A stretch of DNA of 12,818 nt, from positions 1 through 12,818 of the forward strand of contig JACZXM010000032.1 in NCBI GenBank assembly GCA_022571615.1. The letters run 5' to 3'. The DNA is from Acidobacteriota bacterium (GTDB lineage Bacteria > Acidobacteriota > UBA890 > WLXD01). A model generated the notes under the pieces. The model did not search any database, was not told where the DNA came from, and worked only from the letters and a program-made list of their open reading frames with translations. Below, one piece after another: positions 1-12,818 of this stretch (position 1 is the first letter of the stretch; every line of letters begins with the position of its first letter). Both the position numbers and the translations under genes were made by a program.

Positions 1-201
1 GCGGTCGCGCAGCTCGGGCGACGGCTCGGCGACCGGGACAGCGTGCGCCAGCAGCCCGGCGATGGCGCGTAGCTCCTCGACCTCGGCGCGGGCCGTCGCG
101 GAATCCGCAAGGTGCGCCTCCAACTGCCGACGATCGCTGTCATCGAGCGCATCGAGAGCGTACCCTGCTGCAAGCTCGCGCCAGTCGTATCGATCGCTCA
201 T
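1..201 (-). CDS. Anti-sigma factor, N-terminal part (cut by window edge)
   Basis: The first 67 codons of a gene that runs off the left edge. The visible protein begins MSDRYDWRELAAGYALDALD and continues with a DxxDRRxLEAHLxxS pattern, then a helix and a PSPELRDR segment. This is the layout of the cytoplasmic sigma-binding N-terminus of RskA-type (anti-sigma-K-like) factors, which hold an ECF sigma factor at the membrane until a signal releases it. The ATG overlaps the sigma gene stop as ATGA, so the two are translationally coupled and should form a sigma/anti-sigma pair. The visible part has no HxxxCxxC zinc motif, so it is not an obvious ZAS-type anti-sigma factor. The membrane helix and outer domain lie outside the window. 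The family call rests on the N-terminal pattern and the position next to the sigma gene. Confidence 0.8.
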   Translation of the reverse strand, partial: MSDRYDWRELAAGYALDALDDSDRRQLEAHLADSATARAEVEELRAIAGLLAHAVPVAEPSPELRDR

Positions 202-785
202 CGTTGATCCTGCCTCAGATGCTCACCCAGCGCGCCGCGTAGTTTCTGCATTGCCGCCCGCATGCGCGTCTTAACGGTTCCCAACGGAGTGCCGGTAGCC
301 GTTGCGATCTCGCTCTGGCTCATGCCCTGGAAATATGCCAGCTCGATCGTGATTCGCTGCTCTTCAGGTATCGCGCGCAAAGCCGCGCTCACTGCCCCGC
401 TCAGCTCGCGGCGCCCGACCGCGGTCTCCTGATCCGCCGGCTGCCAGCGCCAGGAATCCGGTGAGCTAAGCGCTGCCTCATGTGCCTGCTGCCGGCGGCG
501 GGCCGCACGATAGAGATCCAGAGCGCGGCTCCGCACCACCATGTTCATCCAGGCACTCACCCCACCACGCGCGGGATCGAATCGCCGGCCCTGCTTCCAG
601 AGCTGCACGAAGGCCTGCGCCACCGCATCCTCTGCGTCGCCTGGATCGCGCAGGATCGCGAATGCGATCGAGTACGCCTTGCGGCCATGCCGATCGTACA
701 GTTCCCCGAGGGCTGCCTCGTCGCCACCGTTCATTCGCACCACGAGCTGCGCGTCGTCGATTCTGGTTGGTTCGACATCAACCAT
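198..785 (-). CDS. ECF RNA polymerase sigma factor (sigma-70 family)
   Basis: A group 4 (ECF) sigma factor that directs RNA polymerase to a small regulon. From the chosen ATG at 785 (195 aa), region 2 covers about residues 10-90, with DEAALGELYDRHGRKAYSIA and DAEDAVAQAFVQLWKQ. Region 4 covers about 135-185, with IPEEQRITIELAYFQGMSQSEIA followed by TPLGTVKTRMRAAMQKLR, a typical helix-turn-helix that reads the -35 element. There is no sigma region 3, as expected for ECF factors. A longer in-frame ATG at 839 would add 18 residues that look unlike sigma sequence. Neither start has a clear Shine-Dalgarno site, so the start is uncertain. The stop overlaps the start of the anti-sigma gene, so activity is probably controlled by that partner. 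The family is certain; the ECF subgroup and the signal are not determinable here. Confidence 0.9.
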   Translation of the reverse strand: MVDVEPTRIDDAQLVVRMNGGDEAALGELYDRHGRKAYSIAFAILRDPGDAEDAVAQAFVQLWKQGRRFDPARGGVSAWMNMVVRSRALDLYRAARRRQQAHEAALSSPDSWRWQPADQETAVGRRELSGAVSAALRAIPEEQRITIELAYFQGMSQSEIATATGTPLGTVKTRMRAAMQKLRGALGEHLRQDQR

Positions 786-867
786 GGACGGAACTCGGGA
801 GAGGGACGCACGGCAAGCCCCCGAGCCTAGCCGCTCCATCCAAGTCCGTAAACCCGGCCGGCCCCGG

Positions 868-995: not shown

Positions 996-1904
996 ATGCG
1001 CACTCGCCCCCTATCGCTGGCAACCTGTCTACTGACCGCAACCTGTCTGATCGCCGCCGCCCCGTCCCAGCAGAGGGACTTCAGCGAAGTGCAGATCGAG
1101 ACACTGGAGGTGGCGGACGGCATTTACATGCTCGTTGGAGCGGGCGGCAACATCGGCCTGTCGGTGGGGGAGGACGGACCGTTCGTGGTCGATGATCAGT
1201 TCGCCCCCCTGACCGACAAGATCAAGGCGGCGATCGCCGCGGTGACCGATGGCGAGGTGCGTTTCGTTCTCAACACCCACTGGCACGGCGATCACACCGG
1301 CGGCAACGAGAACTTCGGCCAAGCCGGAGCGCTGATCGTGGCGCACCGCAACGTGCGCAAGCGGATGAACCCGGAGGAGTTCACCGAGGTCATGGGGCGC
1401 ACCCAACAGGCGCCGGCGGCGGCCCTGCCGCTGGTCACCTTCACCGACGAGGTCACCCTGTACTGGAACGGCGAGAAGATCCGCGCCCAGCATGTGGAGC
1501 ACGCCCACACCGACGGCGACACGATCATCTGGTTCACCCACGCCAACGTCGTACACATGGGCGACACCTTCTTCAACGCCCGCTACCCGTTCATCGACAT
1601 CGATTCGGGCGGCAACCTCAACGGCGTGATCGCGGCCGCCGAGGCGGTGCTGGCGCGGGCCGATGCCGACACCAAGATCATCCCGGGGCACGGGGAGCTG
1701 GCTGGGGTGGAGGCGCTGCAGAAGTACCACGACGTCCTGGTGCTGGCACGCGATCGGGTCAGTGCGCTGATTGACGAGGGCAAGAGCCTGGAGCAGATCA
1801 TCGAGGCCAAGCCGATGGCCGAGTACGACGAGGGCTGGGGCAGCGGCTTCATCAACGGCGAGCGTTTCCTCGCCGCGGTTCATCGGAGCCTGACCGGGAG
1901 CTGA
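996..1904 (+). CDS. Exported MBL-fold metallo-hydrolase
   Basis: A 302-residue metallo-beta-lactamase-superfamily protein. The ATG at 996 is preceded by AAGGAG at 982-987 (8-base spacing), a strong start. Residues 1-22 form a Sec signal peptide (positive MRTR, then a hydrophobic run ending IAAA before PSQQ), so the enzyme should act in the periplasm or outside the cell. Metal-binding motifs are complete: THWHGDHTGG with H95, H97, D99 and H100; HAHTDGDT with H169/H171; GD at D190; and PGHGE with H232. Together these indicate a dinuclear zinc hydrolase fold. The sequence style is that of the broad quinoprotein-relay/SoxH-like MBL group rather than a recognisable resistance enzyme, so the substrate is unknown. 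It is divergent from the ECF sigma gene and has its own candidate promoter. Downstream it converges on the TPR/HEAT gene. Superfamily certain, function not. Confidence 0.92.
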   Translation: MRTRPLSLATCLLTATCLIAAAPSQQRDFSEVQIETLEVADGIYMLVGAGGNIGLSVGEDGPFVVDDQFAPLTDKIKAAIAAVTDGEVRFVLNTHWHGDHTGGNENFGQAGALIVAHRNVRKRMNPEEFTEVMGRTQQAPAAALPLVTFTDEVTLYWNGEKIRAQHVEHAHTDGDTIIWFTHANVVHMGDTFFNARYPFIDIDSGGNLNGVIAAAEAVLARADADTKIIPGHGELAGVEALQKYHDVLVLARDRVSALIDEGKSLEQIIEAKPMAEYDEGWGSGFINGERFLAAVHRSLTGS

Positions 1905-6954: not shown

Positions 6955-6961
6955 TCACCTA
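6955..6961 (-). promoter_or_regulatory. Ribosome site embedded in the peptidase stop codon
   Basis: The minus-strand string TAGGTGA contains the peptidase stop (TAG, 6959-6961) and the Shine-Dalgarno site of the membrane-protein gene, four bases before its ATG. This arrangement usually means translational coupling. Confidence 0.5.
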
Positions 6962-9106
6962 CGACAGGAAGCTGAAGAATTCCAACATGCTCTGGACCCA
7001 GATCATCCATTTCGACGCCCACTTGCGGGAGGCGAAGCGAGCCTCGGGCTGGCGCGTCCAGCTGTTGTTGGTGAAGTCCACATCCAGCGTCAGTTTGTGC
7101 TCTGGATCGACCCGCACCGTCTCGACCTTCGCCGGCCGGGTGTAGTCGAAGCGAGCCCAGCGCGACCGGCCGTCCCACTGCTCGCGAACGGTCTCACCGT
7201 CGGCGAACGCGATCTCGATCTGTACCGGGAAGATCGCCTCGCCCCAGCGGCGCACGATCACCGTTGAGTCGTATTGGGCCGCCTCGTCGGATTCGTCTTC
7301 CTCTCCCGCCTCGCCCGGGGCAAACGCCAGGCCGCCCTCGCTTTCGACATAGCCGCGCGGCGATCGCACCGGGCGCGAATCCACCGACTCGACCGCGTAG
7401 TCGAACACGTCGGAACTGTCGTAGGTCTGCGCGAAGTACCAGCCGAGGTCCTGGCCGCTGACCTCGTTCACCACGGCGAAGAAGTCCTCCGGCTTCGGGT
7501 GGCGGAACTTCCAGCGCTGGTAGTAAGTCGACATGACCTTCTGGAAGGTCTCCCAGCCCAGCATGTTCTCGAGCGTTCGCAGCATCATGCCGGGCTTGCC
7601 GTAGGAGTTGAGCCCGTAGGCTCCCGGCCCGTAGCGCCAGGAGGGCGTGGACATGGGATCGAGCTTCAGCTCGGTGTGGAAACCGCCGTAGGCGTCGGCC
7701 CCGATCGTGCGCTCGGTCATCGGAACGGAGGGAAACACCACCGGCAGGAAGCCCTCGAAGTAGCGTTGTGTGAGCACCGGGTTCGGGTAGGCGACCTCCA
7801 TCGTGCGGGTGGTGGAGTAGGTGTCGAAACCCTCGTCCATCCAGGCGTTCTCGAACTCGTTGTTGGCGACGATGCCGTACCAGAACTGGTGGCCGGCCTC
7901 GTGCACGGTGACGCCCTCGGGCGATCGCATCGGCGGAGGCGAGAGCCAGCGGGTACCGCCGGTAAACAGCGTCGGGTACTCCATCCCGCCGGTTCTCGAC
8001 TGGTAGGCGGGGTCCACGACGGTGACATGATCGTACGGATACGCACCCCACCAGGTGCCGTAGTACTTGAGCGCCGCGCGGGTGGCGTTGAAGTAGCGCT
8101 CCACGCGGTCTGCGTGGTCGGGCATGAGTAGCAGGCGCATGTCTACCGGCGGCAGGCCCGGCTCCTCGAAGCGCGACTCGTGCACCGTGAAGTAGGGGCT
8201 GGTCGTCCAGGTGAAATCGTGGACATCCTCCTGGACGAACTGGTGCGTGGAGGTCCCGTCGCCGTTGTCGCGCACCTGGACTTCCTTGCCGGTGGCCCCG
8301 AGCACCCAACCAGTCGGCACCGTCATGCGCACGTCGTAGACGCCGAAATCGGCGTAGAACTCGGTCTGGATGAACTGGTGGCAATTCCAGGTACCGTCGG
8401 CCTCGAACACACCCACCTTGGGGAACCACTGCGCCAGAAAGTAGTAGTCGGCAATCGTGCCGGTGCGCGCGAAGGTGCGCGGCACCTTGGCCTCCCAGTG
8501 GATCGCCACCCGCACCGTCGCTCCGGGTGCGACCGGCTCGGGCAACGTCACCCGCATGACCGTACGGTCGTGCGGGTTGCCGTCGTCGGGCTGGATGAAC
8601 TCCGGGACTAGCACGGTGGCGGGCTGTCCCTCGGGCGCCTCGGCGGGCTGTTTCTCGGCCGACCCGGAGTCGCCCAGCAGTTGCACCAGCTTGACGTCGC
8701 TGTAGGCCCACTCGTCGTCGCGCCGGTCGGTGAAGTCTCTGGACCGGTAGCGCACCGAGCGCAAGAAGGAGCTCTCGGTGTTGCGCCAGGCGTTGTAGTA
8801 GAGATGGAACTGCAGGTCCGGAGCGGGATGCTCGGTGGTGTTGGTCCAGGTGAGAATCTCGCGCCCGTCGAGGATCTTGCGCTCCGTATCGAGCCGCACG
8901 TCGATGTCGTAGTTGGCGTTGCGGGCGCTGAGTGCAGCCGGCGGCGCTGGCGAGCCGCCCGGCTCCTGGGCCGCTTGCGCCGAGCCCTCGAGTTGCGCCT
9001 CCTCCTGGCCGGCGACTCTTTCGATGGGTGCCGCCCCCTGGCCGGCAACAAGCAGAGCCGCCAACGCGGTGGTCAAGCATCCCCTGGCAAAGATCCTGGA
9101 GCGCAT
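6959..9106 (-). CDS. Secreted M1-family zinc metallopeptidase
   Basis: 715 residues. The ATG at 9106 has AGGGAGGT at 9111-9118 (4-base spacing) and opens a signal peptide, MRSRIFARGCLTTALAALLV then GQGA, so the enzyme is exported. A longer in-frame ATG at 9217 lacks these signs. The N-terminal beta domain (about 62-300) is followed by the catalytic core. GGMEYP at 373-378 is the M1 substrate N-terminus/exopeptidase motif. HEAGH at 402-406 gives zinc ligands H402 and H406 and the general base E403. DEGFD supplies the third ligand E425, exactly 18 residues after the second histidine. A tyrosine in the YGKPGMMLRTLE block (about 502) fits the transition-state-stabilising position. A glutamate- and aspartate-rich linker lies near 599-612, then a beta C-terminal domain and an aromatic tail. 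It should cleave N-terminal residues from peptides outside the cytoplasm. It is first in an operon with the membrane protein and divergent from the large multidomain gene. Confidence 0.93.
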   Translation of the reverse strand: MRSRIFARGCLTTALAALLVAGQGAAPIERVAGQEEAQLEGSAQAAQEPGGSPAPPAALSARNANYDIDVRLDTERKILDGREILTWTNTTEHPAPDLQFHLYYNAWRNTESSFLRSVRYRSRDFTDRRDDEWAYSDVKLVQLLGDSGSAEKQPAEAPEGQPATVLVPEFIQPDDGNPHDRTVMRVTLPEPVAPGATVRVAIHWEAKVPRTFARTGTIADYYFLAQWFPKVGVFEADGTWNCHQFIQTEFYADFGVYDVRMTVPTGWVLGATGKEVQVRDNGDGTSTHQFVQEDVHDFTWTTSPYFTVHESRFEEPGLPPVDMRLLLMPDHADRVERYFNATRAALKYYGTWWGAYPYDHVTVVDPAYQSRTGGMEYPTLFTGGTRWLSPPPMRSPEGVTVHEAGHQFWYGIVANNEFENAWMDEGFDTYSTTRTMEVAYPNPVLTQRYFEGFLPVVFPSVPMTERTIGADAYGGFHTELKLDPMSTPSWRYGPGAYGLNSYGKPGMMLRTLENMLGWETFQKVMSTYYQRWKFRHPKPEDFFAVVNEVSGQDLGWYFAQTYDSSDVFDYAVESVDSRPVRSPRGYVESEGGLAFAPGEAGEEDESDEAAQYDSTVIVRRWGEAIFPVQIEIAFADGETVREQWDGRSRWARFDYTRPAKVETVRVDPEHKLTLDVDFTNNSWTRQPEARFASRKWASKWMIWVQSMLEFFSFLS

Positions 9107-9110
9107 CCGC

Positions 9111-9118
9111 ACCTCCCT
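9111..9118 (-). promoter_or_regulatory. Strong ribosome binding site that sets the M1 peptidase start
   Basis: AGGGAGGT on the minus strand, four bases before the ATG at 9106, is the best Shine-Dalgarno match in the window. It decides the start against the longer ATG at 9217 and places the signal peptide at the very N-terminus. Confidence 0.65.
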
Positions 9119-9199
9119 CGCGTTCGCACAGACCCACGACTGTGGGGCTGCTCCGACCCTACGTCTTTCCGGGTTTAGCCTCAAACCAACGTGCAGGCC

Positions 9200-9217
9200 G
9201 TGCTCGATCCGGAGCAC
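9200..9217. promoter_or_regulatory. Inverted repeat between divergent peptidase and multidomain genes
   Basis: GTGCTC at 9200-9205 and GAGCAC at 9212-9217 are perfect inverted arms around GATCCG. They lie near the middle of the 172-base gap between two divergent genes for exported proteins, so a shared operator is possible. A second, smaller hairpin (CCCAC/GTGGG, 9133-9146) lies nearer the peptidase start. No clear -35/-10 pair was recognised in either direction. Confidence 0.3.
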
Positions 9218-9278: not shown

Positions 9279-12200
9279 ATGCGACGTCCGGTTTTCTTGT
9301 TGCTCGCGCTCGGAGCGCTCATCGGGGCGCCCGGCAACCCGGCCGCAGTTGCGTCAGCCCCGGCTCGCGACGTCCTGCTGGATCCAGACAACGCGGCCTG
9401 GCAGGTGGCGGCACCGGATCTGTTCCGGGTTCGGTTCGACACCTCCAAGGGAGCCTTCGTGCTCGAGGTCAACCGGCGCTGGGCACCGCGCGGGGCCGAT
9501 CGGATCTACAACCTCGTGCGGCTGGGCTTCTACGACGACACGCGCTTTTACCGCGTGCGAGAGGGCTTCATTGTCCAGTTCGGCCTGTCGGGTGATCCGG
9601 CGGTCAACGCCGTTTGGTACGAGCGCACGATGCCCGACGATCCGGTGCGCCGGGGCAACGAGCGCGGCATGGTGTCGTTCGCCATGCTCGAGGCCCCCGA
9701 TAGCCGCACCACGCAGCTCTACATCAATCTGGCAGACAACACCCGGCTCGATGCGCAGGGGTTCGCGCCAGTGGGGCGCGTTCTGCAGGGCATGGACGTA
9801 GTCGAGAGCCTGTATTCGGGCTACGACGAGTCGGCCGGCGGCGGCATGCGCGGAGGAAACCAGGGCGAGATCGTAACCGGCGGCAACGCCCATCTGGATG
9901 CCGAGTACCCGCTGCTCGACCACATCTTCAGCGCCCGGATCGAGCCCGGCTCGATCATGCGCTTCCCCGATACCGGGGCCAATCGCATCCGCATCGAGGA
10001 GCATCTGTTGCCGGCCGTCACCACCGGGCCGCTCGATCCCGCCTGGAGCCCCGACGGGCGATGGATCGCCTTTTCGATGCGTGGCGATATCTGGAAGGTG
10101 CCCGCCGAAGGGGGCGAGGCGGTGGCGCTCACTCACGGGCCCGCCTATCACTACGAGCCCGCCTGGAGTCCCGACGGAAACACGCTGGCGCTGAGCCTGG
10201 AGCTCGATGGCAACTTCGACATCGGCGTGGTTGAGGCCGGCGGGGGTCGGACCGGCGAGGGCAACGCCGGCTCGGGCGAGGTGCGACGGCTCACCCGTCA
10301 TCCTCACATCGACATCCAACCAGCGTGGAGCGCTGACGGGTCGCGGCTGGTCTTTGCCAGCGCGCGGGGACGGGGCTTCGACATCTACTCGGTTCCGGTG
10401 AGCGGCGGTGCCCCAACTCCCTTGGTGGCAGGGCCAGGGCATCAGATCCAGCCCGCGGTGGCGCCCGACGGCGCCGGGTTGGCGTTCGTCTCGCCGCTGC
10501 GCGGGCGCCTGGGAACCGGCGCCATCTGGAGCACCGAGCTAACTGCAGGAAACGACCCCGACCCCGCCACCTACACGGCCGCCGAACGGCTCCAGCGTGC
10601 CACGATGGTGCACTACGAGGAAACCAGCTACCGATCCGAGCCGGCGTGGACGCCCGATAGCAAGGCGATCCTGTGGGTATCGGATGCGGCGGGCAGCAAC
10701 GACATCGCCGTGGTGCCGGCCGGTGGCGGCAGTGTGGTTCGCCTGACCGAGGATCGCGGTGACGAATACGGTCCCGTTGCCAGCCCGGACGGGCGGCGCA
10801 TCGCCTTCGTGTCCAACCGCAACGGCCCGATGCGCCTTTACACCGCGCCGGCCGGCGGGGCGCGGCGCAGCGCCTGGAGCGAGGTGCGGATCACCTCACG
10901 CCGAGCCATGGTGCCGAGCGGTCGGGTACGGATCCAGGTGCGCGACGCCGCCAACGGACAACTGCTGCCGGCACGCGTCGTCCTCACTGCGGCCGATGAG
11001 CGCAGCTACGCCCCCGAGGGCGGATTCCACAAGGTGGTCTCGTCCACCGACATGCACTCCTTTCACCTTCAGGGTGCGGTCGAGGTGGAGGTGCCCGTGG
11101 GCACGGTGCACGTAGAGGCGATGCACGGGTTCGAGTTCGAGCCGGCGGCCGCGAGTGTGCAGGTAACCGCCGGCGGGACCACACCCGTCGTTCTGGAGCT
11201 CCAACGCCTGATCGACGCTCCAGCCCTGGGCTGGTATTCGGGCGATACCCACGCCCACGATCTGCACCAGGGACGCCACGGACTGAGCCGCAAGGAGTTC
11301 TTCGGGCAGCTGTTGGCCGAGGATCTGCATGTCACCAACGCGCTCATCCACATGGACGGCACCCGCATCATGGGACGGTGGGAGGATCTCACCGGGGAGC
11401 CCTCGCCGCTCTCCACCCCGGAGCACATCCTGCAGTACGCGCAGGAGTTTCGGGGCTCGTTCGGCCACGTCGGCCTGCTGGGGATCTCCGAGTTCGTCAT
11501 GCCGCTCATCGGCGGCACGCCGGCCACGCAATTTGCCAACGATGTGCTGAACTTCGCGTATCTCGATGCCGCTCGGGAACAAAACGGCATCGGCGGCTTC
11601 ATGCACCCCTACACGCGTCCCGTGCGCACACCGGCCGACGGTGCCTTCTCGGAGATCGCCCTGGACGTGGCGCTGGGCAAGGGCACGTTCTTCGATGTTG
11701 CCTCGATCTGGTATGACGAACTATCCAACGCCGCAATGTACTACCGCTACCTCAACGCCGGCTTTCACCTGGCTGCCAGCGGCGGCTCCGACAACTTCGC
11801 CGACGTGTGGCGCGACCCCGGCGCTGGCACCGACCGCACCTACGCCCTGCTGCAGGGACCGCTGTCGCTGCCAACGTGGCTGGAGGCAGTGGCGGCGGGC
11901 CGCACCTTCGCCACCACCGGGCCGTTGCTCTTCTTGCAGGTCAACGGCGCAAAGCCGGGAGAACACCTGGATCTGGGACCGGACGATCCCGTGCACGTGA
12001 AGATCGATGTCGCCTCGATCGTGCCGCTCGATCGCGTCGAGATCGTCGCCAACGGCGAGGTGGTGCATGGGTTCGATGCCCGCTCCGCAGGGCACCGCTT
12101 CTTGATCGAGCACACCCTCGATCTGCCCGAAGGCGGCTGGGTCACGGCCCGGGCGGTGGGGCCACCGGCGCGAGCGGTTACCGACAGCTACGCCTTTGCC

Positions 12201-12818
12201 CAGACCAGCCCGGTGTGGGTGACGCGCGAGGGCAGGGCGTTTCGGAGCGCCTCCGATGCCCGCTTCCTCGCCAACACGGTGCGGGCTCTGTGGCGGCGGG
12301 TGTCCGAGCGCGATCGTTTCGTCGACGCGGCTTCCCGCGAGCGCTACCGGGCGGCGGTGAACGAGGCGATCGGCATCTACGAGCAAATCGCTACCAGCGC
12401 CGATACCATCACCTCCCCCAACCCGGATCCCCGCGTGCATCAGCTTCCCGCCGGCCCCGAGACCGTCGCCTGGGGCTACTACTGGTCGGAAGGCAAGCCG
12501 GTGCTCGAGATCGACTCCGGCGACATCGTCGAGGTGACGACGATGATCACCAACAATCCGACGCGGCTGGAGGCCGCCGGGGTGCCGCCCGAGAAGGTGC
12601 AACAAGCGCTGCGCGATATCTACGAGCAGGTCACCGACCGAGGCCCGGGGGGTCACATTCTCAACGGGCCGATCTTCGTGCGCGGGGCCGAGCCGGGCGA
12701 TGTTCTCGAGGTCCGCATGCTGTCGATCGATCTGGAGATAGATTACGGCTACAACGGCTGCCGGGGCTTCCTTCCCGACAATTGCACCGAGCCCCGCACC
12801 CGCATCATTGCGCTCGAT
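9279..12818 (+). CDS. Secreted multidomain protein: cyclophilin, TolB-like propeller, CehA/McbA metallohydrolase, acetamidase (3' end cut)
   Basis: One open frame of 1,180 codons without a stop, continuing past the window. Residues 1-27 are a signal peptide (MRRPVFLLLALGALIG, then AVASA). About 47-185 are a cyclophilin-type prolyl isomerase: FYRV with R92, Q100 in IVQFG, and RTTQLYIN at 143-150. Its tail reaches about 220. Six PD40 blades follow, with PAWSPDG-type motifs near 254, 294, 348, 392, 455 and 499. About 545-645 are a beta-sandwich. The CehA/McbA PHP-type metallohydrolase begins at GDTHAHDLH (655-663), with H776 in GGFMHPY and D838 in ASGGSDN, and a helical end near 990-1040. From 1053 comes an acetamidase/formamidase domain (VAWGYYW near 1065, GHILNGPIFVRGAEPGD at 1125-1141); only about 128 residues of it are inside. 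The start has no good ribosome site, but the signal peptide supports it. It probably acts on amide or carbamate bonds outside the cytoplasm; substrate unknown. Confidence 0.9.
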   Translation, partial: MRRPVFLLLALGALIGAPGNPAAVASAPARDVLLDPDNAAWQVAAPDLFRVRFDTSKGAFVLEVNRRWAPRGADRIYNLVRLGFYDDTRFYRVREGFIVQFGLSGDPAVNAVWYERTMPDDPVRRGNERGMVSFAMLEAPDSRTTQLYINLADNTRLDAQGFAPVGRVLQGMDVVESLYSGYDESAGGGMRGGNQGEIVTGGNAHLDAEYPLLDHIFSARIEPGSIMRFPDTGANRIRIEEHLLPAVTTGPLDPAWSPDGRWIAFSMRGDIWKVPAEGGEAVALTHGPAYHYEPAWSPDGNTLALSLELDGNFDIGVVEAGGGRTGEGNAGSGEVRRLTRHPHIDIQPAWSADGSRLVFASARGRGFDIYSVPVSGGAPTPLVAGPGHQIQPAVAPDGAGLAFVSPLRGRLGTGAIWSTELTAGNDPDPATYTAAERLQRATMVHYEETSYRSEPAWTPDSKAILWVSDAAGSNDIAVVPAGGGSVVRLTEDRGDEYGPVASPDGRRIAFVSNRNGPMRLYTAPAGGARRSAWSEVRITSRRAMVPSGRVRIQVRDAANGQLLPARVVLTAADERSYAPEGGFHKVVSSTDMHSFHLQGAVEVEVPVGTVHVEAMHGFEFEPAAASVQVTAGGTTPVVLELQRLIDAPALGWYSGDTHAHDLHQGRHGLSRKEFFGQLLAEDLHVTNALIHMDGTRIMGRWEDLTGEPSPLSTPEHILQYAQEFRGSFGHVGLLGISEFVMPLIGGTPATQFANDVLNFAYLDAAREQNGIGGFMHPYTRPVRTPADGAFSEIALDVALGKGTFFDVASIWYDELSNAAMYYRYLNAGFHLAASGGSDNFADVWRDPGAGTDRTYALLQGPLSLPTWLEAVAAGRTFATTGPLLFLQVNGAKPGEHLDLGPDDPVHVKIDVASIVPLDRVEIVANGEVVHGFDARSAGHRFLIEHTLDLPEGGWVTARAVGPPARAVTDSYAFAQTSPVWVTREGRAFRSASDARFLANTVRALWRRVSERDRFVDAASRERYRAAVNEAIGIYEQIATSADTITSPNPDPRVHQLPAGPETVAWGYYWSEGKPVLEIDSGDIVEVTTMITNNPTRLEAAGVPPEKVQQALRDIYEQVTDRGPGGHILNGPIFVRGAEPGDVLEVRMLSIDLEIDYGYNGCRGFLPDNCTEPRTRIIALD

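Follow-up and report, generated by a model that had tools for sequence, protein, structure and literature searches.

Metallohydrolases of the CehA/McbA type are known from pesticide breakdown. For McbA, the carbaryl hydrolase of Pseudomonas sp. XWY-1, a review reports three histidines, His467, His477 and His504, as crucial. The FmdA acetamidases/formamidases act on small amides: a study of Halorubrum lacusprofundi describes a mutant of the acetamidase gene amd3 that did not grow on acetamide (PMC5052560). Here we examine a 12,818-nucleotide stretch of DNA from an Acidobacteriota bacterium (the window), which is the entire contig C508 (JACZXM010000032.1) of a 3.2-Mb draft genome (527 contigs, 71% complete), and in which the beginning of an FmdA follows, in one reading frame, a predicted exported protein made of a cyclophilin, a TolB-type beta-propeller of PD40 repeats and a CehA/McbA metallohydrolase. 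Within a partial coverage of the literature, thin for subscription journals, we found no published account of the cyclophilin-PD40-CehA architecture, no functionally tested member of the propeller-cyclophilin branch of CehA enzymes and no description of a pattern of fusions between FmdA and hydrolases.

The join between CehA and FmdA

As the preliminary description of the window had stated, translation from the ATG at 9279 meets no stop before the contig's last base at 12818, giving a single open frame of 1180 residues (Table 1). The motifs that it had named were all present, and the four kinds of module that it had seen in a frame starting with a signal peptide (recognised by eye) were borne out, three by domain scores and FmdA by homology. 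Homology to CehA ended at residue 1038 and homology to FmdA began at residue 1053, with the 14-residue linker TSADTITSPNPDPR between them. Twenty-two of the 24 relatives without a rear cyclophilin ended no more than 14 residues from the tyrosine matching Y1034, as judged by eye, the other two (P0008 and P0095) ending about 25 residues past it, and residue 1053 matched the point at which stand-alone FmdAs start after their signal peptide (10 compared). There was no stop codon in the CehA-FmdA frame at the join, and inspection by eye found no signal peptide there in any of the three frames. By these alignments, the join is clean and lies at both natural domain ends. The G+C content of third codon positions (GC3) ranged from 0.825 to 0.857 over five parts of the front and was 0.853 for FmdA, whose codon score (0.34) fell within the range of 46 front stretches (0.15-0.40), although both tests are weak for 128 codons. 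Outside the window, the best match in the genome to the FmdA DNA was 33 bases at 88%.

The FmdA fragment comprises about 128 of some 310 residues. Its identity is 69% with the full-length P0221, no more than 77% with the stand-alone FmdAs in our tree and 60-76%, over the aligned part, with the 120 relatives listed of 3287 (proteins of 275-877 residues), and it contains the conserved stretch GHILNGPIFVRGAEPGD. PF03069 scored 22.1 and 26.7 bits against a cut-off of 27, the fragment representing some 40% of the domain. GDGHAAQGDGE, a conserved stretch of the C-terminal half in the FmdA relatives read, would lie beyond the contig end here. Because a median of 185 residues follows the aligned part in 110 stand-alone FmdAs, the full-length protein would have about 1365 residues. 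An FmdA-like piece on another contig of the genome (C430, 1-510 on the minus strand; 1-855 on the minus strand of the extracted locus L001), which itself runs off its contig end, was rejected as the missing continuation, being a distinct FmdA relative that has a signal peptide of its own (by eye) and shares 41% identity with P0221; no continuation of the frame was found in the genome.

We consider it probable that the window holds a genuine gene fusion, in which an exported cyclophilin-propeller-CehA/McbA enzyme gained a C-terminal FmdA. FmdA, previously a stand-alone exported protein, would have been added where many relatives carry a rear cyclophilin, losing its own signal peptide while the CehA gene lost its stop codon, and would then be exported with the larger protein.

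Occurrence of the join and alternative explanations

Several observations weigh against this interpretation. The join is known from one contig, at its very end, in an incomplete draft genome, and the genome G001, from the family of the window, has a three-module relative that stops at the place where the CehA part ends. Three protein searches over 5.8 billion proteins, each limited in its candidates or in the hits listed, gave no second example. The full-length search, in proteins of 649-2065 residues, scored 7996 candidates, 3191 of them over threshold, and FmdA was present in none of the best 120 listed. A search with residues 1000-1180 in the same size range yielded 85 proteins; each carried PF03069, and no CehA or PD40 domain was listed for any. 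In a third, in proteins of 275-877 residues, the join was absent from the 120 listed of 3287, whose coverage of the query region was at most 59%. Matches occurred in 53 of the 396 genomes searched from the phylum, and CehA and FmdA shared a frame only in the window's own genome; 30 of the 53 were judged by locus and the rest by match range and frame length. The CehA part was matched in just one of these 30 loci, that of the window (G332 C38 was also without a match). Searches by tblastn (E<=1e-8) of 27 FmdA loci (L003-L013, L080-L095) revealed no match to CehA, and those of seven distinct CehA-core loci (G001, G002, G004, G007, G015, G058 and Croceicoccus) none to FmdA; some of the stretches were short (L016, for example, has 3007 bases). 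No C-terminal half of FmdA turned up elsewhere in the window's genome, and no other contig was found to overlap the contig end. Finally, in the structure model the predicted local distance difference test score (pLDDT) was mostly below 50 for residues 1046-1180, so the model gives no support to the FmdA part; it is uninformative there because the alignment of 26 sequences from which it was built held no FmdA relatives.

Four candidates for further CehA-FmdA joins (L003, G007 C266, P0152 and G332 C38) were rejected: in each the alignment ran on into a signal peptide or an upstream frame, and the FmdAs were stand-alone or fused to another enzyme. A whole-protein alignment with FmdAs was discarded, since the FmdAs spread over the CehA part. 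In two of the FmdA loci (L009 and L010) a propeller-only match lay about 2-7 kb away.

The scarcity of the join would follow if the last ~390 bases came from another place or organism and had been assembled onto the end of a normal cyclophilin-propeller-CehA gene. Its position at a contig end, its single occurrence and the fact that most relatives without a rear cyclophilin stop at the join position all fit such a chimera, and the near-identical P0004 (99%), which is frameshifted and lacks 88 bases, indicates that variants or errors occur in this gene. A chimera would nevertheless need its break in the last few of about 1045 codons, between signal peptide and mature start of FmdA, and in frame. 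Such a join in frame at both natural ends is improbable by chance (by a rough estimate, 1 in 10,000), and the lack of any better match to the FmdA DNA elsewhere in the genome points the same way, as do, if weakly, the continuous GC3 and codon use. Because such joins are exactly what a reader selects among many contigs, we still leave a modest share of the probability to artefact and regard a chimera as unlikely. More doubtful is a real fusion with an FmdA part that has no function, being recent, neutral or decaying, with its amidase half incomplete or dead. No relative was found that keeps the join, and the second half of FmdA would lie beyond the contig end; yet the visible part is in frame, is as similar to its listed relatives as given above and keeps GHILNGPIFVRGAEPGD, and plain read-through would have retained the signal peptide.

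The preliminary description had raised the question of whether homologues are always separate adjacent genes. In the relatives examined CehA and FmdA are indeed separate proteins, but they are not neighbours, an outcome that points neither way. Their separateness would suit two genes with a stop or frameshift missed between them, which we think highly improbable: the two homologies are just 14 residues apart, inspection by eye of the alternative frames there revealed no signal peptide leading into FmdA, and the genes do not adjoin in the relatives examined. The same lack of proximity argues against a long-standing functional pair and, if the fusion is genuine, favours a recent, lineage-specific join.

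Other fusions of FmdA with hydrolases

Of the 85 proteins from the search with residues 1000-1180, five were alpha/beta hydrolases, 30 D-aminoacylase-like enzymes, one an amidase, one of PQQ type and 48 of AraC type. FmdA stood in front of the alpha/beta hydrolases (10/10) and of the D-aminoacylase-like enzymes (30/30). In three lactonase-like proteins of the metallo-beta-lactamase fold (P0275, P0301 and P0305) it lay behind, starting at residue 293-296; the front part of P0275 scored best with quorum-quenching lactonase models, far below their cut-offs, and no internal signal peptide was seen by eye in P0275 or P0301, the two sequences read. A further case came from G001 (L121, 1495-3600, minus strand), where a cyanophycinase/S51-like enzyme and a complete, more distant FmdA form one frame of 701 residues. 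This protein scored 263.7 bits for FmdA, 57.7 against a cut-off of 23.9 for S51, and 109.6 with a cyanophycinase model, below its cut-off of 126.6.

P0275 and the G001 protein resemble the window in having FmdA C-terminal to a hydrolase without an internal signal peptide (by eye), and differ in their partner enzymes and in having a complete FmdA, which in the G001 protein is also distant. As precedents, FmdAs in this position favour a genuine fusion in the window. P0122 and P0127 link FmdAs related to that of the window (70% and 66% identical) to alpha/beta hydrolases or D-aminoacylase-like amidohydrolases, but in the reverse order, with FmdA in front, and in separate clades. A tree of FmdA (129 columns, many forks open; 85 of 110 stand-alone proteins and 10 of 30 deacylase fusions used) contained fusion clades with support of 99/94 (one stand-alone row inside), 96/99 and 100/98. 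Because the FmdA of the window fell in none of these, its join looks independent of the others. Judged by homology, the CehA-FmdA protein is a further variant of a recurrent joining of FmdA to hydrolases.

The cyclophilin-propeller-CehA enzyme

The cyclophilin of the window scored 73.1 bits with PF00160 (cut-off 21.7), covering profile positions 2-139 of 159. R92 aligned with the arginine of the FHRV motif in PpiA (chain 8xck_j), an arginine that we take to be the catalytic residue of cyclophilins. The module was modelled poorly, with low confidence at about residues 90-210. The adjoining propeller was rejected as the TolB of the Tol-Pal system, as TIGR02800 scored 133.7 bits, far under its equivalog cut-off of 343.15; the propeller fold is common to both. 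All the PDB structure matches listed covered the propeller region, and a sequence comparison of the CehA part with PDB chains gave no match at E<=1e-3. The beta-rich domain that follows the propeller had a pLDDT of 72-97 in blocks of 10 residues.

NF038032 covered the CehA domain with 179.6 bits (cut-off 80; profile 1-314 of 315). H658, H660, H730, H776 and D838 did not vary across the 15 proteins aligned, McbA among them, and the HxH, the two further histidines and the aspartate presumably form a PHP-like metal site. McbA itself (P0325) scored 174.4 bits with the same model and has the same ligands, but is only 26% identical and, unlike the window protein, matched no propeller or cyclophilin model (NCBIfam, E<=1e-5). 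H730 and H776 align with His467 and His504 of McbA, whereas His477 aligns with V740 and is a histidine in just two of the 15, both plasmid proteins. With one of the three histidines reported as crucial not conserved, the enzyme was rejected as a carbaryl hydrolase of the McbA kind proper.

The preliminary description had called the whole architecture undescribed. This stands for the CehA-FmdA join, of which we saw no other example, and not for the cyclophilin: cyclophilin, propeller and CehA occurred together in 84 of the best 120 of the 3191 full-length homologues and are thus common in sequence databases. Novelty is therefore limited to the last module, and what the window holds is probably a common three-module enzyme with a genuine, so far single, C-terminal FmdA. 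The trio occurs in two orders, with the cyclophilin in front in 11 of the best 120, behind in 73 (P0013-P0091) and missing in 36. Sources named for the rear type include Gemmatimonadaceae, Longimicrobiales and Congregibacter.

P0002, P0003 and P0009 share the order of the first three modules with the window (59-70% identity over 86-87% of its protein), but stop after the CehA part and have no FmdA. P0009, labelled 'Acidobacteria bacterium', is contained in the three-module protein of G001, unchanged except for its start residue, which makes an acidobacterial origin of the window most likely. P0004, 99% identical to the window protein, also belongs to the 11 of front type. Its contig of 4690 bases lacks the 88 bases at 11316-11403 of the window, and the gap, which lies in the CehA domain, represents a strain variant or an assembly error. 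The frame of P0004 is lost at residue 680, ahead of the join, on which this protein is therefore silent. P0017, P0025 and P0086 share the three modules and the metal ligands with the window, but in the order PD40-CehA-cyclophilin, with the cyclophilin occupying the site that FmdA takes in the window.

A tree of the propeller-CehA core placed the front type in one clade (Shimodaira-Hasegawa-like approximate likelihood ratio test, SH-aLRT, 95), and the rear label required at least four changes on well-supported branches; this was a quick tree with a very long branch to a distant outgroup, made from 25 of 73 rear, 18 of 36 cyclophilin-less and 11 of 12 front proteins (P0004 dropped). The front cyclophilins also formed one clade (97/98) in a cyclophilin tree of 37 of the 73 rear and all 12 front modules, in which the deep forks were not resolved. 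On these trees the association with cyclophilin appears to have changed repeatedly at the rear end, and that at the front was probably set up once. The pairing of a cyclophilin with either end of the enzyme suggests that the CehA enzyme may require a foldase or proline-binding module within its own chain. A stand-alone cyclophilin of the same type was also seen in L003 (Gemmatimonadetes; 8243-8974, minus strand), about 1 kb from a stand-alone FmdA (9617-11059, plus strand) with an oxidoreductase-like frame between.

Possible function

If the protein is exported as its signal peptide predicts, the propeller could hold or gate a substrate while an ester, carbamate or amide bond is cleaved at the PHP-like metal site. 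A full-length FmdA would hydrolyse a small amide, which might be a product of the CehA site. The cyclophilin would probably aid folding of the large exported chain or bind a proline-containing substrate. The amide- or carbamate-degrading activity proposed in the preliminary description is compatible with these modules and stays a prediction. Tentatively, we suggest a two-site hydrolase working in series outside the cell, in which a larger carbamate or amide would be cleaved by CehA and the resulting small amide by FmdA, within a wider pattern of FmdA addition. If so, FmdA-type enzymes would be a shared nitrogen-releasing module added repeatedly to exported lactonase-, D-aminoacylase-, cyanophycinase- and CehA-like hydrolases. 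Its repeated joining to different hydrolases suggests that small amides are released outside the cell, and names substrates to test.

Features of the window

Table 1. Modules of the fusion frame and the divergent neighbouring gene, with positions in the window.
Feature	Residues	Coordinates	Strand	Basis
Sec-type signal peptide (predicted), MRRPVFLLLALGALIGAPGNPAAVASA	1-27	9279..9359	+	by eye: basic start, hydrophobic core, ASA end
Cyclophilin module	51-180	9429..9818	+	PF00160
TolB-type beta-propeller, PD40 repeats	247-545	10017..10913	+	PD40, 148.7 bits
Beta-rich domain linking propeller and metallohydrolase	546-640	10914..11198	+	strands in predicted model
CehA/McbA metallohydrolase domain	651-981	11229..12221	+	NF038032
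Putative metal ligands	H658, H660, H730, H776, D838	11250..11792	+	alignment
Helical hairpin, C-terminal in CehA part	991-1044	12249..12410	+	model helices 991-1011 and 1017-1044
Linker TSADTITSPNPDPR (join)	1039-1052	12393..12434	+	ends of the two homologies
FmdA acetamidase/formamidase, cut by contig end	first ~128 of FmdA	12435..12818	+	homology
Divergent neighbour, M1-family peptidase		6959..9217	-	PF01433, 56.3 bits (cut-off 27.7)

An M1 peptidase adjoins not only the fusion gene here but also a stand-alone relative of the cyclophilin on a Granulicella plasmid (L119, 1-1212), perhaps by chance. Elsewhere in the window, a protein of the metallo-beta-lactamase fold (996-1904, plus strand; 56.7 bits) is divergent from an ECF sigma factor (198-839, minus strand).

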